A stretch of DNA of 64,000 bases from Niveispirillum cyanobacteriorum (lineage in GTDB: Bacteria > Pseudomonadota > Alphaproteobacteria > Azospirillales > Azospirillaceae): assembly GCF_002868735.1 (NCBI RefSeq), contig NZ_CP025614.1, positions 1-64,000 on the forward strand, written 5' to 3'. The position numbers and the translations under genes were made by a program. Every line of letters begins with the position of its first letter. Within the stretch, counting starts at the first letter, position 1. Positions 6,600 through 23,803 of this stretch are shown one piece after another. The notes below the pieces were generated by a model. The model was not told where the DNA came from, did no database searches, and saw nothing but the letters and a program-made list of their open reading frames with translations.

Positions 6600-8741
6600 A
6601 TGTCGCCCGTCAGCGTCCCTGATTTTGTACGCCTGGATGGCGGCAACGTCTCGCTTGTCCTGGATTGCCGTGGGCCGTCGCCGGTGGCGCTGTATTGGGG
6701 ACCGGGGCTGGATGCGGGGGCCGATGGTTCCATGCTGGACCTGCTGGCCGCACGCGAAGATGCGCCCTGTTCGCCCCTGGTGGCGGCACCCTTGGCCTTG
6801 ACACCGCTGGCTGGGCAGGGCTTTCCGGGCCGCCCCGGTCTTCTGGCCCATGGCGACGGGCGGCGGTGGGCGAGCTATACGCGCATCTCCGGGGTTCGCC
6901 GGCCGGATGGGGCCAGCGTGGAAATTGACAGTGTCGATGATGCCAACGCCCTGACCCTGACCCATCATCTGCGCCTGGACCGCCATGGTATGCTGACCGG
7001 CTGGACCCAGATCCGCAATGACGGGCCGGGCCTGCTGGATGTGGAATGGCTGTCGGCCCCTGTCCTGCCGCTGCCGCCCGATATGGCGGATTGGGTCACG
7101 TTTGAAGGGCGGTGGGCCGGGGAATACCGCCAACGGACCCAGGCCCGCGTGATGGGTGCCGTGGTGAAGGAAAACCGCCGGGGCCGCACATCGCACGATG
7201 CCTATCCGGGTATCCTGGCACAAGCGGCCGGGGCAGGGGATCAGGCGGGCGATGTGTACGCCCTGCATCTGGGGTGGAGCGGTAACCATCGTCTTTACGC
7301 CGATACCTTGTCCGATGGCCGCGCCTATGTGCAGATGGGTGAATTGTTCATGCCTGGCGAAATGCGTCTGGCGGAAGGCACCACCTATCGCACACCCACC
7401 CTTTACGCCGCCTGCTCCGCGACGGGGCGCAACGGCATTTCCGCCTGTTTCCACGATCATGTGCGCGACCGGCCCGACCATGCCCGCCTACGCGCCAAGC
7501 CGCGGCCCGTGCATTATAATACCTGGGAAGCCGTCTATTTCGACCATGACCCGGCCTTGCTGCTGAAACTGGTGGATGAAGCCGCAGCGGTTGGCGTGGA
7601 ACGGTTCGTTCTGGATGATGGCTGGTTCAAGGGCCGGCGCAATGACCGCGCGGGGCTTGGCGACTGGTATGTCGATGAAGCGATCTATCCCGAGGGGTTG
7701 CATCCGATTGTGGCGCGGGTCCGCGAACGCGGCATGGAATTCGGCCTGTGGGTCGAGCCGGAAATGGTCAATCCCGACAGCGACCTGTACCGCGCCCATC
7801 CTGATTGGGTGCTGGGCACGCCGCCGGCCCCGCAACTGATCTTCCGCAATCAGCTGGTCCTGGATGCCAGCCGCGCCGATGTGCAGGACTATCTGTTTGC
7901 GCGGCTGGATGCGTTGCTGCGCGACTACCCCATCTCCTACCTGAAATGGGATATGAACCGCGATATCAGCCATCCCGGCGGGGCCGATGGTCAGGCCGCC
8001 GCGCATGCACATGTGCAGGGGCTTTACGCCCTGCTGCGCCGCCTGCGCGATGCCTATCCGGGGGTGGAGATTGAAAGCTGTTCGGCCGGTGGCGGCCGCG
8101 CCGACCTGGGCGTGCTGGCGCTGACCGACCGCGTCTGGGCGTCCGACAGCAATGATGCGCTGGATCGGCTGACGATTCAGCGCGGCCTCTCCACCTTCCT
8201 GCCACCGGAACTGATCGGGTCGCATGTCGGCCCCACCGATTGCCATATTACGGGCCGCCGCGTCGCCATGGCCACCCGCGTGGCGACCGCCCTGTTCTTC
8301 CATATGGGGCTGGAGGTGGACCTGCTGGGCCTCACCGACACTGAACGCACCGAACTGTCCGCCGGCATTGCCCTGCACAAGCAGTACCGCCCGCTGCTGC
8401 ATGAAGGCCGCCTGATCCGTCTGGACCGGCCCGCCAATGAAGAAGCATTCGGCATCATCGCCCCTGACGGGTCACGGGCACTGTACAGCTACACGCTGCT
8501 CAGCGAACAGGCTGGCTACTTCCCCGGTCGCCTGCGCCTGGCCGGTCTGGACCCGGACGCCCATTATCGCCTGCGCCTGATCTGGCCCGACGTCGCCCAG
8601 AAATCACCCCTGTTCAGCGCCTTGCGCGACGGCGCCATCTTCACCGGTTCCACCCTGATCAATGCCGGCCCGCAGCTTCCCCGCCTGCACCCGCAATCCG
8701 CCATGATCCTGGAGCTGGTGCGCGTATCCCCGCCGATCTGA
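6600..8741 (+). CDS. GH36 alpha-galactosidase
   Basis: A 713-residue family GH36 enzyme that releases galactose from alpha-galactosides such as melibiose and raffinose. The central TIM barrel shows HYNTWEAVYFD, the VLDDGWFKGR strand, the nucleophile Asp in YLKWDMNRDI (near residue 450) and the SCSAGGGRAD / VWASDSNDALDRL acid/base block (near 515). Length and order of the N-terminal beta-sandwich, barrel and C-terminal domain are normal. No export signal is visible. Together with the divergent GH42 gene it makes this a locus for both alpha- and beta-linked galactosides. Confidence 0.93.
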   Translation: MSPVSVPDFVRLDGGNVSLVLDCRGPSPVALYWGPGLDAGADGSMLDLLAAREDAPCSPLVAAPLALTPLAGQGFPGRPGLLAHGDGRRWASYTRISGVRRPDGASVEIDSVDDANALTLTHHLRLDRHGMLTGWTQIRNDGPGLLDVEWLSAPVLPLPPDMADWVTFEGRWAGEYRQRTQARVMGAVVKENRRGRTSHDAYPGILAQAAGAGDQAGDVYALHLGWSGNHRLYADTLSDGRAYVQMGELFMPGEMRLAEGTTYRTPTLYAACSATGRNGISACFHDHVRDRPDHARLRAKPRPVHYNTWEAVYFDHDPALLLKLVDEAAAVGVERFVLDDGWFKGRRNDRAGLGDWYVDEAIYPEGLHPIVARVRERGMEFGLWVEPEMVNPDSDLYRAHPDWVLGTPPAPQLIFRNQLVLDASRADVQDYLFARLDALLRDYPISYLKWDMNRDISHPGGADGQAAAHAHVQGLYALLRRLRDAYPGVEIESCSAGGGRADLGVLALTDRVWASDSNDALDRLTIQRGLSTFLPPELIGSHVGPTDCHITGRRVAMATRVATALFFHMGLEVDLLGLTDTERTELSAGIALHKQYRPLLHEGRLIRLDRPANEEAFGIIAPDGSRALYSYTLLSEQAGYFPGRLRLAGLDPDAHYRLRLIWPDVAQKSPLFSALRDGAIFTGSTLINAGPQLPRLHPQSAMILELVRVSPPI

Positions 8742-8772: not shown

Positions 8773-9144
8773 TTACGATCCGCCCCCCTCCCGCAGCCGG
8801 TCGATGGCGGCCCAGATTTCCTGACCGCCCTTTTCATGCCGATCCGAGAGTTTCTGAAGGTCGGCAGCAAGGTGGCCGATGTCGGAGGAGATTTTGCTGA
8901 CCATCATCTCCACCGCCGCGAAGGCGCGCCGGCCCGCCTTGTCATTGGCGATATCGGCCTCCGCCCGGTCCAAGCGGGCCGTTATACGCACCAGCTCCAT
9001 CTGTATCTGATGCATCAGCGTGGGCAGCCCATCCAACTGTTTCGCCTTGGACGCGGCCAGCCACCGCAGACCCGCCACGGCCCCCGCCGCCGCCAGCGCC
9101 AAACCCCCGCCGGTCAGCGCGTCGGTTGAAAGCAAATCCGCCAT
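8773..9144 (-). CDS. Small membrane-anchored coiled-coil protein, phage-like
   Basis: A 123-residue protein. Residues 10-30 (GGGLALAAAGAVAGLRWL) form one membrane segment; residues 40-118 are heptad-rich and charged (MELVRITARLDRAEADI, IGHLAADLQKLSDRHEKG), suggesting a coiled coil. The layout resembles small phage membrane proteins such as the DUF2730 type, but I cannot assign a family. It lies downstream of the initiator gene behind a terminator, on the same strand. Compare the orphan holin at 23231-23803, which also starts just after a strong hairpin. Confidence 0.55.
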   Translation of the reverse strand: MADLLSTDALTGGGLALAAAGAVAGLRWLAASKAKQLDGLPTLMHQIQMELVRITARLDRAEADIANDKAGRRAFAAVEMMVSKISSDIGHLAADLQKLSDRHEKGGQEIWAAIDRLREGGGS

Positions 9145-9170
9145 CCTTCATGCCCTTGCTGTTTGAAACC

Positions 9171-9213
9171 AGATGAAAAGAAAAGGCCCCGGCATGCCAA
9201 TGCAGCCAGGGCC
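9171..9213 (-). terminator. Rho-independent terminator after the initiator gene
   Basis: On the minus strand a 9-bp stem (9205-9213 with 9185-9193, one wobble) closes an 11-base loop and is followed by a T-rich tract (9171-9184, CTTTTCTTTT). It lies 130 bp beyond the end of the rep gene and before the small membrane gene. Confidence 0.7.
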
Positions 9214-9295
9214 CAATGGGTCGATTGATAACATCAGCTTCCGTCAGGGACAGTGCGTCGTCAAGAATTAATTCCTATATCGTTCATCGGACGGG

Positions 9296-9311
9296 CGTTG
9301 AAAAAGTCCGA
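9296..9311 (-). repeat. Outlying iteron, inverted, downstream of rep
   Basis: CGTTGAAAAAGTCCGA is the reverse complement of an iteron unit (TCGGACTTTTTCAACG) and matches the consensus of the array at 10583-10951 in 14 of the 15 defined positions. It sits 31 bp past the rep stop codon, opposite in orientation to the main array. Confidence 0.75.
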
Positions 9312-9341
9312 TTAAAGAGTGTCGGGCATGATATGCCGGGA

Positions 9342-10412
9342 TCAAACCTGCAGCTTTTCCTCCGCCACCACCGTATCAGCGATGGTGGGCACCCATTTCT
9401 TCAGGTTGGTGGGGGCGGTGGCGGCGGCGGGCAGGGTGACGCCCAGCTGTGCCGCCCGTTCGGCCCAGGCCTTGCGGGTGTTGAAGTCGGCGGCCTCCAG
9501 CCAGCGCAGGGCCGCGATGACGCTGCGCTGCTTGATCTGCCGGGCCTCGGCAGCGGCGGCCATCTTTTCCGCCGCTTCGCCCTGGCGTTGGACCTTGGGC
9601 TTGGCAGCGGTCTTCACGGCCTTTTCCAGCTCGCCCACATCCTTGCCCCGCACCCGGAAAACCAGCCCCACGACGCGCCCGCCATTCCCGCCGCGCCCTT
9701 GCCGGACCTCGTCCATCTCGACGCTGAACTCGGCCAGTTCGTTGATCTCCTGGATGGCGGGGTCGAGGGCCTTTTTGCGCAGGTCCTTGAAATCTTTCAG
9801 CTTGTCACGGCAGCCCAGAACGTCGCGCACCTCATCGATCTTGGCGCTCCAGTACGGCTCCGTCGCCTTGCGGTCGGCGTAGCGCTTCAGGATTTCATAG
9901 AGGGTGAGGGCATATTTGCTGGTGAACTGATAGATCACCGACAAGGACAGGGCCGAATACAGCGCCGGCTCCACCAACCGCTGCGCCACCTCCTCCGGGA
10001 ATTCGAAGGTAAGTTCGCCCGTCACCTCATTGATGGTGACGCGGCCCAGCAGATGGTCCGACACCCAGGTGCGGCCATCGGACCCCAGCACATCATATTG
10101 CACCAAGACCTTCTGCAACCGGGTCAGACTTTCCTTGAGCCAGAAGTTGGTGTCGCCATGCGACGCGGCGTCCCGCGCCTCTGCGGCAAAGCGCCGGATG
10201 TCCGATAGATGCGTGTTATGGCGGGTTGTCTTGCCGATATTGGGAGCGGCGATGGCCAGCAGATGGTTGAACAGCTTGCGATCAGAAAGGCGCAGATCCT
10301 CATTGCCGGTCGCCCGCACCTCCACAAGGGCGGTGGCCTTGATCAAGGTCCCACTCAATTTCTTGCGGCGGGCGGTCTGCGTCGCCACAATCGATAGTGA
10401 TGGTTCCGACAC
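9342..10412 (-). CDS. Plasmid replication initiator, Rep_3 / RepB iteron-binding family
   Basis: A 356-residue initiator of the Rep_3 (two winged-helix) family that binds iterons and opens a plasmid origin. Diagnostic parts are KLSGTLIKATALVEV and LRLSDRKLFNHLLAIA near the N-terminus (first winged helix, to about residue 150), and LSVIYQFTSKYALTLYEILK with the following WSAKIDEVRDVLGCRDKLKD (second winged helix, about 150-260). A basic, Ala-rich extension (about 260-356) follows. The start is a GTG at 10412 behind an AGG; inverted iterons lie 70-90 bp upstream and probably mediate autorepression. Ten direct iterons lie beyond them. This is the strongest evidence that the window belongs to a plasmid or chromid. 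Confidence 0.9.
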   Translation of the reverse strand: MSEPSLSIVATQTARRKKLSGTLIKATALVEVRATGNEDLRLSDRKLFNHLLAIAAPNIGKTTRHNTHLSDIRRFAAEARDAASHGDTNFWLKESLTRLQKVLVQYDVLGSDGRTWVSDHLLGRVTINEVTGELTFEFPEEVAQRLVEPALYSALSLSVIYQFTSKYALTLYEILKRYADRKATEPYWSAKIDEVRDVLGCRDKLKDFKDLRKKALDPAIQEINELAEFSVEMDEVRQGRGGNGGRVVGLVFRVRGKDVGELEKAVKTAAKPKVQRQGEAAEKMAAAAEARQIKQRSVIAALRWLEAADFNTRKAWAERAAQLGVTLPAAATAPTNLKKWVPTIADTVVAEEKLQV

Positions 10413-10453
10413 GAAACCTGCCCCCGTTTCCAGTGAGGGCAGTTAGGCATAAC

Positions 10454-10502
10454 CCGGACCAGATGAAAAGAATTGAGTCCGTTGAAAATGTCCGTTGAAA
10501 AG
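10454..10502 (-). promoter_or_regulatory. rep promoter/operator with inverted iterons
   Basis: Upstream of rep, 10480-10495 (CGTTGAAAATGTCCGT) is a full iteron in inverted orientation, and 10493-10501 repeats its CGTTGAAAA half. A CCGGAC half-site occurs at 10454-10459. Inverted iterons at the promoter are the usual operator through which Rep_3 dimers repress their own gene; here the location, not an experiment, is the evidence. Confidence 0.65.
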
Positions 10503-10509
10503 CCCTGCT

Positions 10510-10541
10510 TTCCTTAATTCCTAGATTCCTAAAGTTCCTAG
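10510..10541. repeat. A+T-richer TTCCT tandem repeat, candidate DNA unwinding element
   Basis: TTCCT recurs at 10510, 10518, 10526 and 10535, spaced 8, 8 and 9 bp, within the most A+T-rich part of the origin region. Repeated short motifs next to iterons are typical of the segment melted by plasmid initiators. No clear DnaA box was found by eye. Confidence 0.5.
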
Positions 10542-10582
10542 GGCCGGATCATGACGGTTTTTCAAAGGGTTGTTGGGTTTAC

Positions 10583-10951
10583 CCGGACAAATTCAACGCT
10601 CCCCCGGACTTTCACAACGTTTCAGAGGGAGGTTCCCAACGCCCCCCGGACACGAACCCGGACCTTTTCAACGGTGCCCTTTGATATCAGCGCTTTATGC
10701 CGCGCTACCGGACTTTTCCTACGCTTATCCGGACCTTATCAACGGCCCGCCGCTTCCGGCTTTTACCGGACAATCCCAACGGGGGCGGCGAAAGTGGCGC
10801 GAATCAAAGGCTTGTGATTCGGATTCAGCGGACTTTTTCAACGGGTTCACCGGACTTCTTCAACGCCCCTGAGAAGCCTGATGTGAATGCTGAGGCGCAT
10901 TCACCGGACATTCCAAACGGGGGTGATGGGTTTACCCGGACCTTTTCAACG
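10583..10951 (+). repeat. Iteron array of the replication origin (ten direct 16-bp units)
   Basis: Ten copies of CCGGACNTTTTCAACG start at 10583, 10604, 10658, 10708, 10729, 10766, 10828, 10850, 10904 and 10936. The CCGGAC and (C)AACG ends are nearly invariant and the middle varies. Start-to-start distances are 21, 54, 50, 21, 37, 62, 22, 54 and 32 bp, many near whole helical turns. A degenerate unit (about 10625-10641) and a CCGGAC half-site (10646) also fit a 21-bp step. An apparent open frame across this stretch is not a gene. The array ends 160 bp before the aldehyde dehydrogenase start. Confidence 0.88.
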
Positions 10952-11110
10952 GGTGGAATCGGTGGGGCGATGAAGGCCCGCGTGGCCGGCAATCCGGCCA
11001 TGACCTGCCCGGGCTTGGCGGAACCGCAAACTTTGCCCAGCTTGGGTTGTGAAGCCGGGGATGGAACCGGCACCTGCGGAAAACAGAAAAACAGGCATAA
11101 GGTGAGAGAG

Positions 11111-12583
11111 ATGGACCAGATGCAGCACCCGATGGGGCTTTCCGATACCGACCTGCTGCGCACCAAGGGTGTGATCGGCGGGGCCTGGGTGGGTGCCGAT
11201 GCCGGCGGGTTGCTGGATGTGCGCAACCCGGCCACGGGTGTCCTGCTGGCACAGGTGCCCATGATGGGGGCGGCGGAGACGGGCCGCGCCATCGATGCCG
11301 CCGCCGCCGCCCTGCCGTCCTGGCGGGTCCTGACAGCGCAGGAACGGGCAAAGCTGCTGATGGGCTGGCACGATCTGATGCTGGACGCCGCCGATGATCT
11401 GGCCCTGCTGCTGACCCTGGAGCAGGGCAAGTCGCTCGCCGAGGCGAAGGGCGAAATCATCTATGGCGCCAGCTTCATCCGCTGGTTTGCGGAAGAGGCC
11501 CGCCGGTCCTATGGCGATGTCATCCCCACGCATAAGCGCGGGTCGCGCCTGATCACCATCAAGCAGCCGGTGGGCGTGGTCGGGGCCATCACCCCCTGGA
11601 ACTTCCCCAATGCCATGATCACGCGCAAGCTGGGGCCGGCCCTTGCGGCGGGCTGTACGGTCGTGCTGAAGCCGGCAGAGGCCACACCCCTGTCGGCGCT
11701 GGCGCTGGCGGTGCTGGCCGAGCGGGCGGGCATTCCGGCGGGCGTGATCAACATTGTTACGGGCGATCCGGTGGCCATCGGTGGCGCGCTGACCGCCTCG
11801 CCTGTCGTGCGGAAGATCAGCTTCACCGGCTCCACCCGTGTGGGCCGGTTGCTGATGGCGCAGAGTGCGCCGACGGTCAAGCGCCTGTCACTGGAACTGG
11901 GCGGCAATGCGCCCTTCATCGTGTTCGATGATGCTGATCTGGGGCCGGCGGTGGCCGGTGCCATGGCGTCCAAGTACCGCAACTCCGGCCAGACCTGTGT
12001 GTGCGCCAACCGCCTGTTTGTCGAAGACGGCATCCATGATGCCTTTGTCGCCAAGCTGACAGAGGAAGTTGGCAAGCTGAAGGTCGGCAATGGCTGTGAC
12101 CTGGGCGTCAACCAGGGCCCGCTGATCAATAAGGCCGCCGTGGAGAAGGTGGAAGAGCTGGTGGCTGACGCCCTGGAGAAGGGGGCGACCTTGGTCACGG
12201 GCGGCAAGCGTCATGAACTGGGCGGCTGCTTCTATGAGCCGACGATCCTGACCGGCATCACCGGCGACATGCGCATCGCGCATGAGGAAATCTTCGGCCC
12301 CGTCGCCGCCATTCAGCGCTTCCGGGGTGAGGAGGAGGTGCTGCGTCTGGCCAACGATACCGAATTCGGGCTTGCCGCCTATTTCTACAGCCGCGACCTG
12401 GGCCGGATCTGGCGTGTGGCCGAAGGTTTGGAAAGCGGCATGGTCGGTGTGAATGAGGGCCTGATCTCCACCGAGATCGCGCCTTTCGGTGGCGTCAAGC
12501 AGTCCGGCCTGGGCCGGGAAGGCAGCAGCCTGGGCCTGGATGAGTATCTGGAGGTGAAATATATCTCCATGGCCGTGGGCTGA
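11111..12583 (+). CDS. gabD: NAD(P)-dependent succinate-semialdehyde dehydrogenase (or alpha-ketoglutarate-semialdehyde dehydrogenase)
   Basis: A 490-residue aldehyde dehydrogenase of the GabD group, oxidising succinate semialdehyde to succinate. It shows PWNFP for cofactor binding, FTGSTRVGR, the general base in LELGGNAPF, the catalytic Cys in NSGQTCVCANR, and the GabD-like C-terminal IAPFGGVKQSGLGREGS. The open frame extends further upstream through the iterons, but the ATG at 11111 matches the normal length. The alternative is alpha-ketoglutarate-semialdehyde dehydrogenase type I, a GabD relative known from Azospirillum arabinose metabolism, which would complete the Weimberg pathway encoded at the other end of the window. 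Sequence by eye cannot separate the two. Confidence 0.85.
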   Translation: MDQMQHPMGLSDTDLLRTKGVIGGAWVGADAGGLLDVRNPATGVLLAQVPMMGAAETGRAIDAAAAALPSWRVLTAQERAKLLMGWHDLMLDAADDLALLLTLEQGKSLAEAKGEIIYGASFIRWFAEEARRSYGDVIPTHKRGSRLITIKQPVGVVGAITPWNFPNAMITRKLGPALAAGCTVVLKPAEATPLSALALAVLAERAGIPAGVINIVTGDPVAIGGALTASPVVRKISFTGSTRVGRLLMAQSAPTVKRLSLELGGNAPFIVFDDADLGPAVAGAMASKYRNSGQTCVCANRLFVEDGIHDAFVAKLTEEVGKLKVGNGCDLGVNQGPLINKAAVEKVEELVADALEKGATLVTGGKRHELGGCFYEPTILTGITGDMRIAHEEIFGPVAAIQRFRGEEEVLRLANDTEFGLAAYFYSRDLGRIWRVAEGLESGMVGVNEGLISTEIAPFGGVKQSGLGREGSSLGLDEYLEVKYISMAVG

Positions 12584-17236: not shown

Positions 17237-19711
17237 TCACTCCACGGTGGCAAGGGTTTGGAAATCACGGGCAGCGGGGGCACCGGGTGCCCGTTCAGCC
17301 CAGGGATCGACCTGGGCATGGCGCTGGCTGGCCAGGAACCGGGCATGCAGGGCGCGGCGGTTGTCGGCATCGTCAACCACGCGGGTCTTCACGAAATCCA
17401 GGCCCACACGCTCAATCCAGGGGGCGGTGCGTTCCAGGTAATGCGCCTCTTCGCGGTAGAGCTGCATGAAGGCACCGCAATATTCCTGCACCTCTTCTTC
17501 CGTGGTCACCTTGGTCAGAAGGTCGGTGCCGCGCAGCTTGATGCCGCCATTGCCGCCGACCAGCAGGTCGAAGCCGCCATCGGTGGCGATGACGCCGAAA
17601 TCCTTGATGGTGGCTTCCGCGCAGTTGCGGGGGCAGCCGGACACCGCCATCTTGAACTTGTGCGGGGTCCAGGAACCCCAGGTCATCCGTTCCAGATTGA
17701 CCCCGACCTCCATGGATTTCTGCGTGCCGAACCGGCACCATTCCGACCCGACACAGGTCTTCACGGTGCGCAGCGCCTTGCCATAGGCATGGCCCGACAC
17801 CATCCCGGCCCCGTTCAGGTCAGCCCAGACGGCAGGCAAATCTTCCTTCTTCACACCCAGAAGGTCGATGCGCTGACCCCCCGTCACTTTCACGGTGGGG
17901 ATATCAAACTTGTCCACCACATCGGCGATGGCGCGCAGTTCCTTGGCATTGGTCAGCCCGCCCCACATGCGCGGCACGACGGAATAGGTGCCGTCCTTCT
18001 GAATGTTGGCGTGAACCCGCTCATTCACGAAGCGGCTGGCCCCATGATCGACATATTCACCGGGCCAGGTGGCGAGCAGGTAATAGTTCAGCGCCGGACG
18101 GCAGGTGTGGCAGCCATCAGGCGTCTTCCATTCCAACGCCTGCATGACGGCGGGGATGGATTTCAGTTCCTGTACGCGGATCAGGCGGCGGATCGTATCA
18201 TGGTCATGGTCGCTGCATTTGCAGATCGGCTTGACCCCCGCCGCCTCATACGCCCCGCCCAGCGCGTGGGCCAGCAGCCCCTCCACCAACCCGGTACAGG
18301 ACCCGCAGGAGGCCGATGCCTTGGTGGTGGCTTTCACCTGATCCAGGGTCGTCAGGCCCTTTTCGCTGATGGCCTTGACGATGGTGCCCTTGCAGACGCC
18401 GTTGCAGCCGCAGATTTCCGCCGTATCAGGCAGCGCCGCAACGGCGGCGGTAGGGTTTGCGGCACCGCCTTCCCGGGATGCGAAACCCTGGCCGAAGATC
18501 AGCGTGTCGCGCAACCCGCTGACATCCTCCCCCGCCTTCAGAAGCTGGAAGTACCACGCCCCATCGGCGGTGTCGCCATACATGACGGCCCCCTTGATGC
18601 GGCCATCCTGCAGCACGATGCGCTTATAGACGCCGCGTCCGGCATCGCGGAACACGATGTCTTCCGTCCCCGGCCCGCCGCTGAAATCGCCGGCGGAGAA
18701 GACATCGACGCCCGTCACCTTCAGCTTGGTGGAGGTGACGGAGCCGGGATAGCCCGCCGCCTGCTTGCCGGCCAGATGATCGGCCAGGACCTTCGCCATC
18801 TCAAACAGCGGCTGCACCAGCCCGTAGCAGGCCCCGCGATGCTGTACGCATTCACCGACGGCACTGATGGCGGGGTCGTTGGTCACCATATGGTCATCGA
18901 CCATGATACCGCGCCCGACTTCCAGACCGGCAGCGGCGGCCAGACGCGTGTCGGGACGGATGCCGACGGCCATCACCACCAGATCGGCGGGAAGGTTTGT
19001 GCCGTCCTTCAGCGCCACGCCCGTCACATGGGCATCACCCAGGATGGCGGCGGTATCGGCACTGGTCAGGACCGTCAGGCCCCGCCGCTCCAGCTCCTTG
19101 GCCAACAGATGCCCGGCGGATGCGTCCAGCTGCCGTTCCATCAAGTGGCCTGCCAAGTGCAGGACGGTCACTTCCATGCCTCGCGCCTTCAGGCCGACGG
19201 CGGCTTCCAGACCCAGCAACCCACCACCGATGACCACGGCCTTGCCGCCCTTGGCGCTGGCGGCCAGCATGGCATCGACATCGTCGACATCGCGGAAGGT
19301 GACAACGCCGGGCAACCGCGCGCCGGGGATGGGGATGACGATGGGCATGGAGCCGGTGGCGATCAGCAGCCGGTCATAGGGGACGGACAGGCCCGACTTG
19401 GTGATCACAACCTGATCATCGCGGTCGATCTCCTCCACCGGGTCGCCGGCATGCAGCTTGATATGGTTCTTCAGATACCAGTCCAGATCATTGATCACGA
19501 TCTGGTCAAAGGTCTTCTCCCCCGACAGCAGGGGCGACAGCATGATGCGGTTATAATTCACGCGCGGCTCCGCGCCGAACACCGTGATGTCGTAAAGGTC
19601 GGGCGCGCGTTCCAGCAATTCTTCGACGGCGCGGATGCCGGCCATGCCATTGCCGATAACGACCAGCCGGGGGCGTGAACTGGTGGCCGGGGGGGCGGAG
19701 AAGGGGGTCAT
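17237..19711 (-). CDS. nirB: NADH-dependent nitrite reductase large subunit
   Basis: An 824-residue NirB. In order: FAD-binding LVVIGNGMAGIRAVEELL, NADH-binding AVVIGGGLLGLEAAVGL, a BFD-like [2Fe-2S] domain (CGCNGVCKGT and SCGSCTGLVEG), and the siroheme/4Fe-4S domain with CVGSEWCRFG and VSGCPRNCAEATIKDFG near the C-terminus. Two starts are possible, 19723 (MEPDMTPF) and 19711 (MTPF); I chose 19711 because GGAG stands seven bases before it. First gene of the minus-strand assimilation cluster. Its 185-nt leader holds structures expected for NasT antitermination and a sigma-54 promoter. Confidence 0.94.
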   Translation of the reverse strand: MTPFSAPPATSSRPRLVVIGNGMAGIRAVEELLERAPDLYDITVFGAEPRVNYNRIMLSPLLSGEKTFDQIVINDLDWYLKNHIKLHAGDPVEEIDRDDQVVITKSGLSVPYDRLLIATGSMPIVIPIPGARLPGVVTFRDVDDVDAMLAASAKGGKAVVIGGGLLGLEAAVGLKARGMEVTVLHLAGHLMERQLDASAGHLLAKELERRGLTVLTSADTAAILGDAHVTGVALKDGTNLPADLVVMAVGIRPDTRLAAAAGLEVGRGIMVDDHMVTNDPAISAVGECVQHRGACYGLVQPLFEMAKVLADHLAGKQAAGYPGSVTSTKLKVTGVDVFSAGDFSGGPGTEDIVFRDAGRGVYKRIVLQDGRIKGAVMYGDTADGAWYFQLLKAGEDVSGLRDTLIFGQGFASREGGAANPTAAVAALPDTAEICGCNGVCKGTIVKAISEKGLTTLDQVKATTKASASCGSCTGLVEGLLAHALGGAYEAAGVKPICKCSDHDHDTIRRLIRVQELKSIPAVMQALEWKTPDGCHTCRPALNYYLLATWPGEYVDHGASRFVNERVHANIQKDGTYSVVPRMWGGLTNAKELRAIADVVDKFDIPTVKVTGGQRIDLLGVKKEDLPAVWADLNGAGMVSGHAYGKALRTVKTCVGSEWCRFGTQKSMEVGVNLERMTWGSWTPHKFKMAVSGCPRNCAEATIKDFGVIATDGGFDLLVGGNGGIKLRGTDLLTKVTTEEEVQEYCGAFMQLYREEAHYLERTAPWIERVGLDFVKTRVVDDADNRRALHARFLASQRHAQVDPWAERAPGAPAARDFQTLATVE

Positions 19712-19730
19712 GTCTGGCTCCATCCATCTC

Positions 19731-19749
19731 TTGCGCAAAAAATGCGCAA
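19731..19749 (-). promoter_or_regulatory. Short perfect hairpin before the nirB ribosome site
   Basis: TTGCGCA and TGCGCAA (7 bp) enclose a five-base loop, about 20-40 bases before the nirB start. It follows the U6 tract of the leader terminator and could modulate access of ribosomes. Confidence 0.5.
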
Positions 19750-19750
19750 T

Positions 19751-19785
19751 AAAAAAGGCGCCCGACCGTGCATCGCCCCCCGCCT
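19751..19785 (-). terminator. Leader terminator/attenuator of nirB
   Basis: In the nirB leader RNA a G+C-rich hairpin (arms in about 19774-19785 and 19755-19760) is followed directly by six U residues (A6 at 19751-19756 on the plus strand). A terminator between promoter and first gene is what an antitermination protein such as NasT would act on. Confidence 0.6.
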
Positions 19786-19820
19786 GGGGACAGTTACACG
19801 TTCGGACGCCATTATCCGGT

Positions 19821-21587: not shown

Positions 21588-22175
21588 ATGGCCAATCCTG
21601 AACCCAATATCCTGATCATTGACGGCAATCCCGACCGCGCTTCGGTGGTGGAGCGCGGGCTGGTGGAATCCGGCTGGGTCCGGGTCAGCACGATCGGCCC
21701 CTCGGTCAATCTGCTGGCCCGCATCCAGGCGCTGGCCCCCGATGTCATCATCATCGATCTGGAGAACCCCGACCGTGACACGCTGGAACAGATGTTCCAG
21801 GTCAGCCGCGTGGTGCAGCGGCCCATCGCCATGTTCGTGGATCAAAGCGACAGCCAGATGATCCATGCCGCCATTGAGGCGGGGGTCAGCGCCTATGTCG
21901 TCGATGGGCTGCGTCAGGACCGGATCAAGCCGATTGTGGAAACGGCCATCACCCGCTTCAACGCCTTTGACCGGCTGCGCCGCGAACGGGACGAGGCGCA
22001 GTCCAAGTTGCAGGATCGAAAACAGGTGGAGAAGGCCAAGGGCCTTCTGATGAAGCATCGCGGCCTGTCGGAGGAGGATGCCTATACCCTGATGCGCCGC
22101 ACCGCCATGAAGCAGAACCGCAAATTGTCCGACATCGCGCAGAGCGTGATCACCGCCTTCGAGATGGAGATTTAA
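21588..22175 (+). CDS. nasT: NasT-type ANTAR response-regulator antiterminator
   Basis: A 195-residue protein with an N-terminal receiver-like domain (NILIIDGNPDRASVVERGLV, to about residue 120) and a C-terminal ANTAR RNA-binding domain (QVEKAKGLLMKHRGLSEEDA, then YTLMRRTAMKQNRKLSDIAQ). NasT binds hairpin pairs in the leaders of nitrate-assimilation transcripts and prevents termination; it is held inactive by NasS without nitrate. I prefer the ATG at 21588 over a GTG at 21567. The gene ends two bases before nasS. Confidence 0.92.
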   Translation: MANPEPNILIIDGNPDRASVVERGLVESGWVRVSTIGPSVNLLARIQALAPDVIIIDLENPDRDTLEQMFQVSRVVQRPIAMFVDQSDSQMIHAAIEAGVSAYVVDGLRQDRIKPIVETAITRFNAFDRLRRERDEAQSKLQDRKQVEKAKGLLMKHRGLSEEDAYTLMRRTAMKQNRKLSDIAQSVITAFEMEI

Positions 22176-22177
22176 GA

Positions 22178-23185
22178 ATGGCCGAGATCGTCAAGCTGGG
22201 CTTCGCGCCCCTGGTGGATTGCGCCATTCCCGTCGCGGCGGCGGAAGGTGGCTTCGCGGCGGCGGAAGGGATCGACCTGATGCTGGACCGTGCGCCGTCC
22301 TGGGCGGCGCTGCGCGATAAGCTGGCCTTCGGACGGGTGGAGGGGGCGCATATCCTGGCGCCCCTGGCGCTGGCCATTCATCAGGGCATTGCCGGGGTGC
22401 CGGCCACGCCGCTGGTGGTGCCCGTGTCCCTGGGGTTGGCCAATAATGCCATCACCCTGTCCATGGAGCTTTACGAACGCATGGTGGCGGCGGCACCCGA
22501 GGTGATGGCGGGGCCGCCCGCCCTGCGCGCCCGCGCCCTGCGGCCCGTCATCGATGCCGACCGCGCGGCGGGCAAGCCGTTTCTGTCCTTCGTCACCGTC
22601 TTCCATTTCTCCTGCCACCATTACGAGCTGCTGAAATGGCTGGCCGATGGCGGGATCGATGGCCGGTCGGAAGTGAATATCGGCGTCATCGCCCCGCCGC
22701 GCATGGTGGAAAGCCTGGCCGCCGGCTGGATCGACGGTTATTGCGCGGGCGAACCCTGGAACCTGCGCGCCGTACAGCGTGGGGTGGGCAAGGTGGTGGT
22801 GACCAAGGCCGATATCAGGCCCGATGGGTTGGAAAAGGTGCTGGGCCTGCGCGCCGATTGGGCCGATGCCGACCCCGCCCGCACATCCGCCCTGATCCGG
22901 GCTGTGGTAAAGGCCGCCGACTGGTGCGCCGATCCGGCCAACCGCGGCGATCTGGCCCGGCTGCTGGCCGAACCGCGCCATGTCGGTCTGGCGGCGGATC
23001 TGATTGCGGAGACCCTGGCCGGGGCCATGCCCGCCCCCAACCGTAACCGCCCCGATCCGGCGGATGTGGGCCGGCTGCTGGCAGAGATGGCGGCGGCGGG
23101 ACAGTTGGAAGTGTCGGTGGACCGGGGTGCGGGTCTGGCGGCGGCGGTCTGGCGGTCTGATCTTTATGATGCGGCGATGGTGTAA
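22178..23185 (+). CDS. nasS: NasS-type nitrate sensor (NrtA-like binding protein)
   Basis: A 335-residue protein of the NrtA/CmpA-like periplasmic-binding fold but with no signal peptide (MAEIVKLGFAPLVDCAIPVA), as expected for the cytoplasmic sensor NasS. Characteristic stretches are FGRVEGAHILAPLALAIHQG and AGWIDGYCAGEPWNLRAVQ. Without nitrate it sequesters NasT; nitrate binding releases it. Translationally close to nasT (2-bp gap). Confidence 0.92.
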   Translation: MAEIVKLGFAPLVDCAIPVAAAEGGFAAAEGIDLMLDRAPSWAALRDKLAFGRVEGAHILAPLALAIHQGIAGVPATPLVVPVSLGLANNAITLSMELYERMVAAAPEVMAGPPALRARALRPVIDADRAAGKPFLSFVTVFHFSCHHYELLKWLADGGIDGRSEVNIGVIAPPRMVESLAAGWIDGYCAGEPWNLRAVQRGVGKVVVTKADIRPDGLEKVLGLRADWADADPARTSALIRAVVKAADWCADPANRGDLARLLAEPRHVGLAADLIAETLAGAMPAPNRNRPDPADVGRLLAEMAAAGQLEVSVDRGAGLAAAVWRSDLYDAAMV

Positions 23186-23230
23186 CGCCGATCCGGGCAG
23201 GAGCCGCGGCAGTTCATGCCGTGACATGCA

Positions 23231-23803
23231 TCAGCCCTTGGTGCCTGCGCCATTGCGGCGGTTCCACTCGCGGATGGCCTCCTCCGACAGGGGGGTGCCG
23301 GCATCGGCCATTTCTGCCTTGTATCGGTTCGGCTCCAGGGGGGCGGGGGGCTTTGCCGCCGCCATCTGTGCCTGTGTCGCCAGGACGGCCTGCACCTGCT
23401 CCAGGCTGGGTCCCTTGGCGCGGCGGGCCGACAGCAGGGTGCGGTCGCCGAAGAAAAAGGCGATGATGGCCCCCAGCACCACCCACATTTCATCGGGGAT
23501 CAGGGCCCAGGCCTGCGCCGCCGCCGCAAAGCCCACAGGATCGGCGGATGCCCAGACGAATATGCCGATCACTCCCAACGCCATGGCTGGCCGGGGCAGA
23601 CGGTTCAGCCCATCGATGAAACTGTCCCACCATGTGCGGCCCTGGCGGTCGGCGAATTCGGCCCCGAACTGCTGAAACCGGGCCAGCATCTCAGCATGGC
23701 GGCTGGTCTCGTCCTGGGTTTTGTCGCCAGTAAAGGGCGTGATGGCACCGGCCAATGCCTGCGCCCCGCCGCCGACCAGCGCCTGTAACAGCTTGTTCAG
23801 CAT
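23231..23803 (-). CDS. Holin-like protein, GTA_holin_3TM type, orphan
   Basis: A 190-residue protein starting MLNKLLQALVGGGAQALAG, with WWDSFIDGLNRLPRPAMALG, a membrane helix around GVIGIFVWASADPVGF and another at EMWVVLGAIIAFFFGDRTL. This is the pattern of the 'holin of 3TMs, for gene-transfer release' family. I chose the ATG at 23803, with AAGGA about 10 bases upstream, over a longer frame. No capsid, tail or lysin genes are near, so it is an orphan; role in lysis is unknown. A perfect 12-bp hairpin lies immediately upstream. Confidence 0.75.
   Translation of the reverse strand: MLNKLLQALVGGGAQALAGAITPFTGDKTQDETSRHAEMLARFQQFGAEFADRQGRTWWDSFIDGLNRLPRPAMALGVIGIFVWASADPVGFAAAAQAWALIPDEMWVVLGAIIAFFFGDRTLLSARRAKGPSLEQVQAVLATQAQMAAAKPPAPLEPNRYKAEMADAGTPLSEEAIREWNRRNGAGTKG

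Follow-up and report, generated by a model that had tools for sequence, protein, structure and literature searches.

Introduction

In iteron plasmids, Rep bound to an array of repeats opens the origin, Rep bound to an operator represses rep, and extra Rep sites lower the copy number by looping or pairing. In F and in P1, the latter arranged as oriR-repA-incA, the par genes come next in order. The part of the F literature used here (PMC13028717) gives the same account of iteron plasmids and places five iterons (incC) past repE. On chromosome 2 of V. cholerae, ParB2 spreads from parS2-B into the initiator site, which is proposed to relieve inhibition, according to the section of PMC3688505 drawn upon here. 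At rctA, ParB2 and RctB can be bound at the same time, and RctB also stimulates the transcription of parAB2, as stated in the corresponding section of a review (PMC6399470).

The locus described here lies in a 64,000-nucleotide stretch of DNA from Niveispirillum cyanobacteriorum (the window), which makes up positions 1-64000 of the 237,129-bp contig C4; the genome of 6,048,780 bp is assembled in five contigs with completeness 100. Judged by its sequence, the locus has the usual make-up of an iteron origin with a Rep_3 initiator, and is thus of a known kind; the part worth specialist attention is the comparative pattern of Rep units and parS-like sites in its relatives. We consider it likely, on the strength of sequence comparison, that a secondary replicon of 237 kb replicates from this locus and that the Rep unit past rep was left there by a deletion of about 2.0 kb that removed parAB.

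Results

Initiator gene and repeat units

The rep gene occupies 9342-10412 on the minus strand, starts with GTG and encodes 356 aa. The WH1 and WH2 domains of Rep_3 initiators were both found over the Pfam cut-off (Rep3_N, PF01051, 1.5e-11; Rep3_C, PF21205, 1.3e-12). A solved-structure search with Rep gave nothing better than a release factor at E 0.19, with RepE-type chains at E 0.7. Two of 72,556 plasmid records matched the origin DNA, covering 14% and 5% of the query, and none of the titles listed for Niveispirillum plasmids or Azospirillum iteron replicons pointed to a study of these origins.

The 16-mer CCGGACNTTTTCAACG had 15 matches with up to three mismatches in the 64-kb window, whereas 100 shuffles gave a mean of 1.28 (sd 1.13, largest 4). 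Twelve of the 15 fall in 9296-10951, ten on the plus strand and two on the minus strand (10480-10495 and 9296-9311), and the remaining matches (25683, 44212 and 50101) are near the chance level. The ten direct iterons occupy 10583-10951 on the plus strand, starting at 10583, 10604, 10658, 10708, 10729, 10766, 10828, 10850, 10904 and 10936. Given that two of the twelve units are exact and that five, three and two carry one, two and three mismatches, respectively, the ten-fold repeat in one orientation that the initial annotation had described holds for a loose consensus. Genome-wide, seven of the nine sites with at most one mismatch lie in the origin cluster; allowing two mismatches raises the count to 32, of which 10 belong to the cluster and 22 do not, compared with 24 in all for a reversed control pattern. 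Since the sites outside the cluster are at the control level, the unit is not spread over the genome, and the array beside rep is specific to this replicon.

The same annotation had placed a full and a half unit, inverted, at the rep promoter and another inverted unit just past the rep stop, in agreement with our search. The former compose an operator-like site at 10480-10501 on the minus strand, in which the inverted unit (10480-10495) overlaps the half unit CGTTGAAAA (10493-10501) and TTTTCAACGGAC occurs twice with a period of 13. These inverted partial iterons stand at a predicted promoter and are kept in relatives: G007 and G005 have an identical site and G008 a near-identical one, and that of G002 has diverged (G, C and L numbers designate genomes, contigs and loci). 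Because rep is read from the minus strand, the unit at 9296-9311 lies beyond its stop, where it is a single putative Rep unit placed as in an F/P1-type inc region. An A+T-rich stretch with repeated TAGGAA at 10510-10541 is a candidate unwinding element, similar in the aligned relatives and weakest in G002.

A DnaA box is frequent, though not universal, in the origins of Rep_3 iteron replicons. With up to one mismatch, a search that diverged boxes would escape, the box TTATNCACA was not found in 10401-11100 or 9141-9345. Two candidate elements were rejected: a hairpin over the rep ribosome-binding site scored z -1.70 in the window but only -0.77 and -0.85 in two relatives, and a repeated 15-mer, ACCAGATGAAAAGAA (at 9168 and 10458), was taken as chance because the copy at 9168 is not kept in the G005 alignment.

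Replicon carrying the origin

The strong DnaA match of the genome (237 bits) is on C1, and weaker matches that still pass the cut-off occur on C1, C2, C3 and C5; the profile matches across the five contigs list none over the cut-off on C4. A chromid would join essential core genes to replication of the plasmid type; on C4, ARAGORN lists 0 tRNA genes. The earlier proposal of a secondary replicon is therefore upheld, in that the window maps to C4, which differs from the contig with the strong DnaA match and carries the other genes of the window, among which the initial annotation named nitrate assimilation, DAB and xyl genes. The circularity of C4 is an assumption, a direct overlap of 20-399 bp between the contig ends not having been found.

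Relatives of Rep

Rep had matches at E ≤ 0.001 in 11 of 11 genomes of the genus, the weakest at 1.4e-6, and in 55 of 82 in the family. The stronger matches were sorted into groups A, B and C plus the C3 and C2 initiators of the same genome. Group A consists of near-orthologues with 85-98% Rep identity (window, G005, G007, G008:C10 and G002). Identity to the window Rep is 53-57% in group B (six loci), 48-53% in group C, which is found in the genus and the family, and 35% and 32% for the C3 and C2 initiators, respectively. Both Rep_3 domains were over the cut-off in the tested C3, B and C proteins, while in the C2 protein the second was over and the first just under it (20.0 vs 22.4 bits). The units of groups A (CCGGACNTTTTCAACG), B (CCTGGCNAAANCTCCG; other strand, CGGAGNTTTNGCCAGG) and C (near TCGGACATTTNGACGG) are of related form, and those of C2 and C3 differ from them. 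Among named records, near-orthologues of Rep belong to two Niveispirillum MAGs, Aerophototrophica crusticola and alphaproteobacterium AAP38.

Iteron arrays of 8-13 units (up to three mismatches) are present at matching places in all four group-A relatives. A long palindrome at the distal end of the G002 array (L089, about 2896-2936) contains two units pointing towards each other.

The unit past rep and the missing parAB

In G005 and G008, the order of elements is array, inverted operator unit, rep, unit in array orientation, parA, parB, the palindrome TTCCGACGTCGGAA and an inverted unit. G007 shows this order as far as its contig reaches, which is the start of parB, and G002 as far as the rep-proximal unit, its contig ending about 440 bp past rep. 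The array-orientation unit just past rep is present in all four near-orthologous loci, at a distance of 13-32 bp from the point where the rep alignment ends, and the inverted unit stands about 2.0 kb further, behind parB, in both loci that are long enough (G005 and G008). In the window, parA, parB, the palindromes and the rep-proximal unit are all missing, and a single inverted unit lies 30 bp from the rep stop.

This unit is the core of a palindrome that the initial annotation did not mention. Together with its own inverted half, it covers 9286-9312 on the minus strand, with arms at 9286-9292 and 9306-9312, and the palindromic form is also found in G005 and G008. Window positions 8785-9316 align with the sequence behind parB in G005 (86%, 532 columns), not with its rep-parA gap, and 9284-9312 align with the post-parB place in G008 (29 bp, 93%). 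By homology, 9286-9312 corresponds to the post-parB site, probably as a leftover, and is putatively bound by Rep. The aligned blocks are collinear (G005 contig 19296-19820 with C4 8785-9316; G005 21812-23423 with C4 9351-10962) and enclose a junction of 34 bp at 9317-9350, the last 9 bp of which are the end of rep. At this place, G005 has 1,991 bp comprising parA, parB, two parS-like palindromes and the rep-proximal unit. Exact copies of TTCCGACGTCGGAA number three in the 44-kb G005 contig, two in the 11-kb G008 stretch, one in the 5-kb G007 contig and 0 in C4. An A-type parAB was not found in the genome that carries the window, the best-scoring ParA and ParB being 46% and 45% identical, compared with 90% and 88% between G005 and G008; short partial matches reached 54% (54 residues) for ParA and 46% (150 residues) for ParB.

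Behind the leftover site, a G+C hairpin followed by a T-rich tail at 9176-9214 on the minus strand is a likely intrinsic terminator. The fold of 9168-9216 on this strand has -25.2 kcal/mol and z -4.03, and G005 has similar hairpin letters. Past the terminator, a 123-aa ORF (8773-9144, minus strand) encodes a protein 97% identical to that of G005 with no Pfam family over the curated cut-off. It belongs to a flank shared with G005, outside the origin, and was rejected as a part of the module as it was not found beside rep in G008. Recombination between the units flanking parAB was also rejected, by inference, as the cause of the proposed deletion, since these units are inverted to each other and simple recombination would invert rather than delete.

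An unlinked parAB on C4

Own-genome searches revealed one ParA and one ParB relative on C4, adjacent at 217,242-219,060, with ParB domains found; if C4 is circular, they are about 27 kb from rep. The sequence GTGCAACGTTGCAC occurs twice here, once in parB and once before parA, and no further copy with up to two mismatches was found on C4. Compared with G005, C4 has about 48 kb extra next to the 123-aa ORF, and this stretch includes the unlinked parAB. This parAB (G000:C4:214177-223522, L029) is flanked by a gene for an LRR-Roc-COR-TIR protein and by an ORF of 1447 aa for which Pfam gave no match at E 0.001.

G003:C9 and G010:C37 have two GTGCAACGTTGCAC sites at places matching C4. The C4 ParA is 95% identical to those of G003:C9 and G010:C37 and 88% to that of G004:C12, and these three contigs bear group-B reps 21-24 kb from this type of parAB. 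It is also present in G001, G007, G008 and G009, the pairing with rep being established only on the three group-B contigs. The idea that C4 is a group-B replicon with a swapped rep was rejected for the backbone as a whole because C4 shares little beyond the par module with G003:C9 and G010:C37. Alignments of at least 400 bp cover only the par module and one 13.6-kb block in the former and the par module and a few weaker pieces in the latter.

L187, L188, L190 and L134 also contain an aligning par stretch, 1.75-1.95 kb long, and their flanks have little or nothing in common, which gives the unlinked parABS of C4 the appearance of a portable module. Counter to a simple portable picture, the B-type par of G009 (L189, L205) is enclosed by genes that border the A-type locus of G005, a neighbouring stretch in G001 (L186) also matches C4, and G007 has a rep-linked A-type parA in addition to the C4-type par. 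On G009:C359 (L205/L189/L206), the B-type parAB lies between an aldehyde dehydrogenase-like gene and the flank blocks of the G005 A locus, in changed order. Partition of C4 most likely rests on the unlinked parABS (C4:217,242-219,177).

Rep units beside parS-like palindromes

We take the palindromes to be parS from their repetition and their position beside parAB. The gap between Rep unit and palindrome is 9 bp in G005 and 62 bp in G008. It is 4-14 bp in eight of eight loci of the C3 family, three of which have units at three mismatches and three palindromes at one mismatch. In the C2 family, it is 5-10 bp in six of nine loci and 113 bp in one, two having none nearby; over the two families, the gap thus does not exceed 14 bp in 14 of 17 loci. 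The units and palindromes of C2 and C3 are unrelated to each other and to those of A. If palindromes were placed at random, P would be 0.02-0.16 per locus with a gap of at most 14 bp. Because these single-locus values are weak and the loci share ancestry, the case rests on the three unrelated pairs of unit and palindrome. In the window, there is no initiator site within tens of bp of a parS-like site, as C4 has no A-type palindrome and as neither an A nor a B unit lies within 120 bp of its B-type palindromes.

Loci chosen from a longer family list were fetched from two other genera. In genus g11, the gap is 18-19 bp in all four C2-type loci fetched, and a Rep unit within 60 bp of a palindrome was found in none of the four C3-like loci fetched. 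Six C2-type loci from genus g3 showed neither parAB nor repeated palindromes within stretches of 16 kb. A Rep unit (up to three mismatches) lies 15-37 bp past the rep match in five of them (L195, L197, L198, L199 and L200), and L196 has no Rep unit past rep. At the unlinked B-type par, an A or B unit with up to three mismatches was present within 120 bp in 0 of 8 loci.

Several features of the other contigs of the genome were also recorded. On C3 (L014:11164-11244), a Rep unit stands at the parA promoter between two GTGTGACGTCACAC palindromes. On C2, copies of the unit TCCTTACNNNTTGGGG are dispersed across about 15 kb surrounding rep and par (G000:C2:113194-128006, L015); with at most one mismatch, 17 of its 18 sites in the genome fall in this region and the other is also on C2, as against 8 for a control pattern. 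C5 (L017, G000:C5:54000-70000) has a group-C Rep_3 remnant of 94 aa, 88% identical to G005:C9, and a separate RepA_C-type initiator, at about 8141-8419 and 11172-12137, which suggests that the initiator was replaced there too.

Discussion

The initial annotation interpreted the inverted units on either side of rep as a layout that is not the commonest and could serve handcuffing or copy control. As an evolved handcuffing device, this bracket would account for the unit on each side of rep and for the core and palindromic arms that the leftover unit retains, and F also has iterons past repE, deletion of which raises the copy number (part of PMC13028717). The arrangement is nevertheless seen in one of five loci: the four orthologous loci have the array-orientation unit past rep, and the inverted unit of the window maps to the far side of parB, where both sufficiently long relatives have it, so that the arrangement of the window is what a parAB deletion would be expected to leave. 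Nor is a unit past rep unusual, as shown by five of the six C2-type loci picked from genus g3 and by F. The bracket is probably not a designed layout, and its evolution for copy control appears quite improbable, although handcuffing by the leftover unit itself (9296-9311) is possible. It is likewise unlikely that 9286-9312 matters as an RNA or transcription element, either a hairpin at the 3' end of rep or an operator for the gene at 8773-9144, rather than as a replication site. The 7-bp arms do fold as RNA (-9.0 kcal/mol, z -2.85), and the site lies between the rep stop and the likely terminator; however, the core of the unit is kept in the window, G005 and G008 and matches the array unit, and the neighbouring gene was not found beside the site in G008.

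The direction of the change also has to be considered. In favour of an ancestor without parAB, with a gain between two units in the relatives, parA is found behind an A-type rep only in G005, G007 and G008, and about 25 bp at the junction (9317-9341) are matched by neither block. In the rep tree rooted with a group-B rep, (G002,(G008,(window,(G005,G007)))), however, G008 carries parAB and branches outside the group of window, G005 and G007 (support 0.90), so that a single loss in the line of the window is the shorter account. Rep, ParA and ParB are 94%, 90% and 88% identical between G005 and G008, as for a unit inherited together, and G002, the most distant, has a similar rep-proximal unit. 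We therefore regard ancestral absence as very unlikely, the polarity being a matter of parsimony over four or five genomes. That parAB is in the cell and was collapsed out of C4 during assembly is scarcely credible, given that the assembly has five contigs and completeness 100, that A-type parAB was found on no contig and that the junction carries a sequence of its own. Loss of parAB by deletion thus remains our preferred reading.

From these features, we infer Rep binding, origin opening, autoregulation, copy control and the choice of par genes for partition as follows. Rep bound to the ten direct units would open the neighbouring A+T-rich stretch, and Rep bound at its own promoter, to the full and half inverted units, would limit Rep synthesis. 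A deletion of about 2.0 kb would have taken parA, parB, the palindromes and the rep-proximal unit, bringing the post-parB site to within 30 bp of the rep stop. The remaining palindromic site probably retains the ability to bind Rep and to act as a weak inc-type site, by titration or by pairing with the array, its ParB neighbour having gone. By analogy with V. cholerae, the post-parB unit in the relatives may restrain replication under the control of ParB, and the rep-proximal unit may provide a connection to the expression of parAB; both links would be gone in the window.

More broadly, it is conceivable, though we hold it only tentatively, that the Rep_3-related replicons of the genus share a repeatedly evolved or strongly kept element in which an initiator unit stands a few bp from parS, represented by the three unrelated pairs, and in which the loading of ParB would either free Rep or block it, thereby coupling segregation to re-initiation. 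C4 would then have discarded this coupling with parAB and, now served by a portable parABS of a different type, would be a natural uncoupled mutant. With the deletion, a puzzling layout becomes an event that can be placed on the tree, and the comparison suggests that secondary replicons exchange their partition genes separately from their origins. The pairing of Rep unit and parS in two further families and one replicon without it offer a natural comparison for partition feedback on replication timing outside Vibrio.

The closest described systems resemble the locus in different respects. The secondary chromosomes c2 and c3 of Burkholderia cenocepacia have repA-type genes, iterons of 19-21 bp and parABS of their own, but their iteron consensus differs, and the part of the source used here does not report a natural loss of rep-linked par (PMC4948915). 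The Rep of A. brasilense Sp7 p4 (NZ_CP012918) is 48% identical to that of the window, a ParA-family gene lies 43 bp behind the p4 rep, and the upstream unit TCGGACATnTnGnCAG has CGGAC and a T-rich middle in common with the A unit. The p4 unit differs in its distal half, an A-type unit is absent from the first few hundred bp behind the p4 rep, and the A-type parAB query gave no match there. As in rctA of V. cholerae chromosome 2, a 39-mer beside parS2-B, the relatives of the window have an initiator unit beside a parS-like site; here, however, the unit is iteron-like, the initiator is Rep_3 rather than RctB, binding is putative and the pairing is lost in the window. The likeness to F is drawn without alignment of unit sequences, and the window differs in having one leftover palindromic unit instead of five iterons and in missing rep-linked par. 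It nonetheless shares with F oriS-repE-incC a Rep_3-type initiator, direct iterons upstream, inverted repeats at the promoter and Rep sites past rep (in the portion of PMC13028717 used here), and its relatives have, in addition, par genes next in order as in F and P1.
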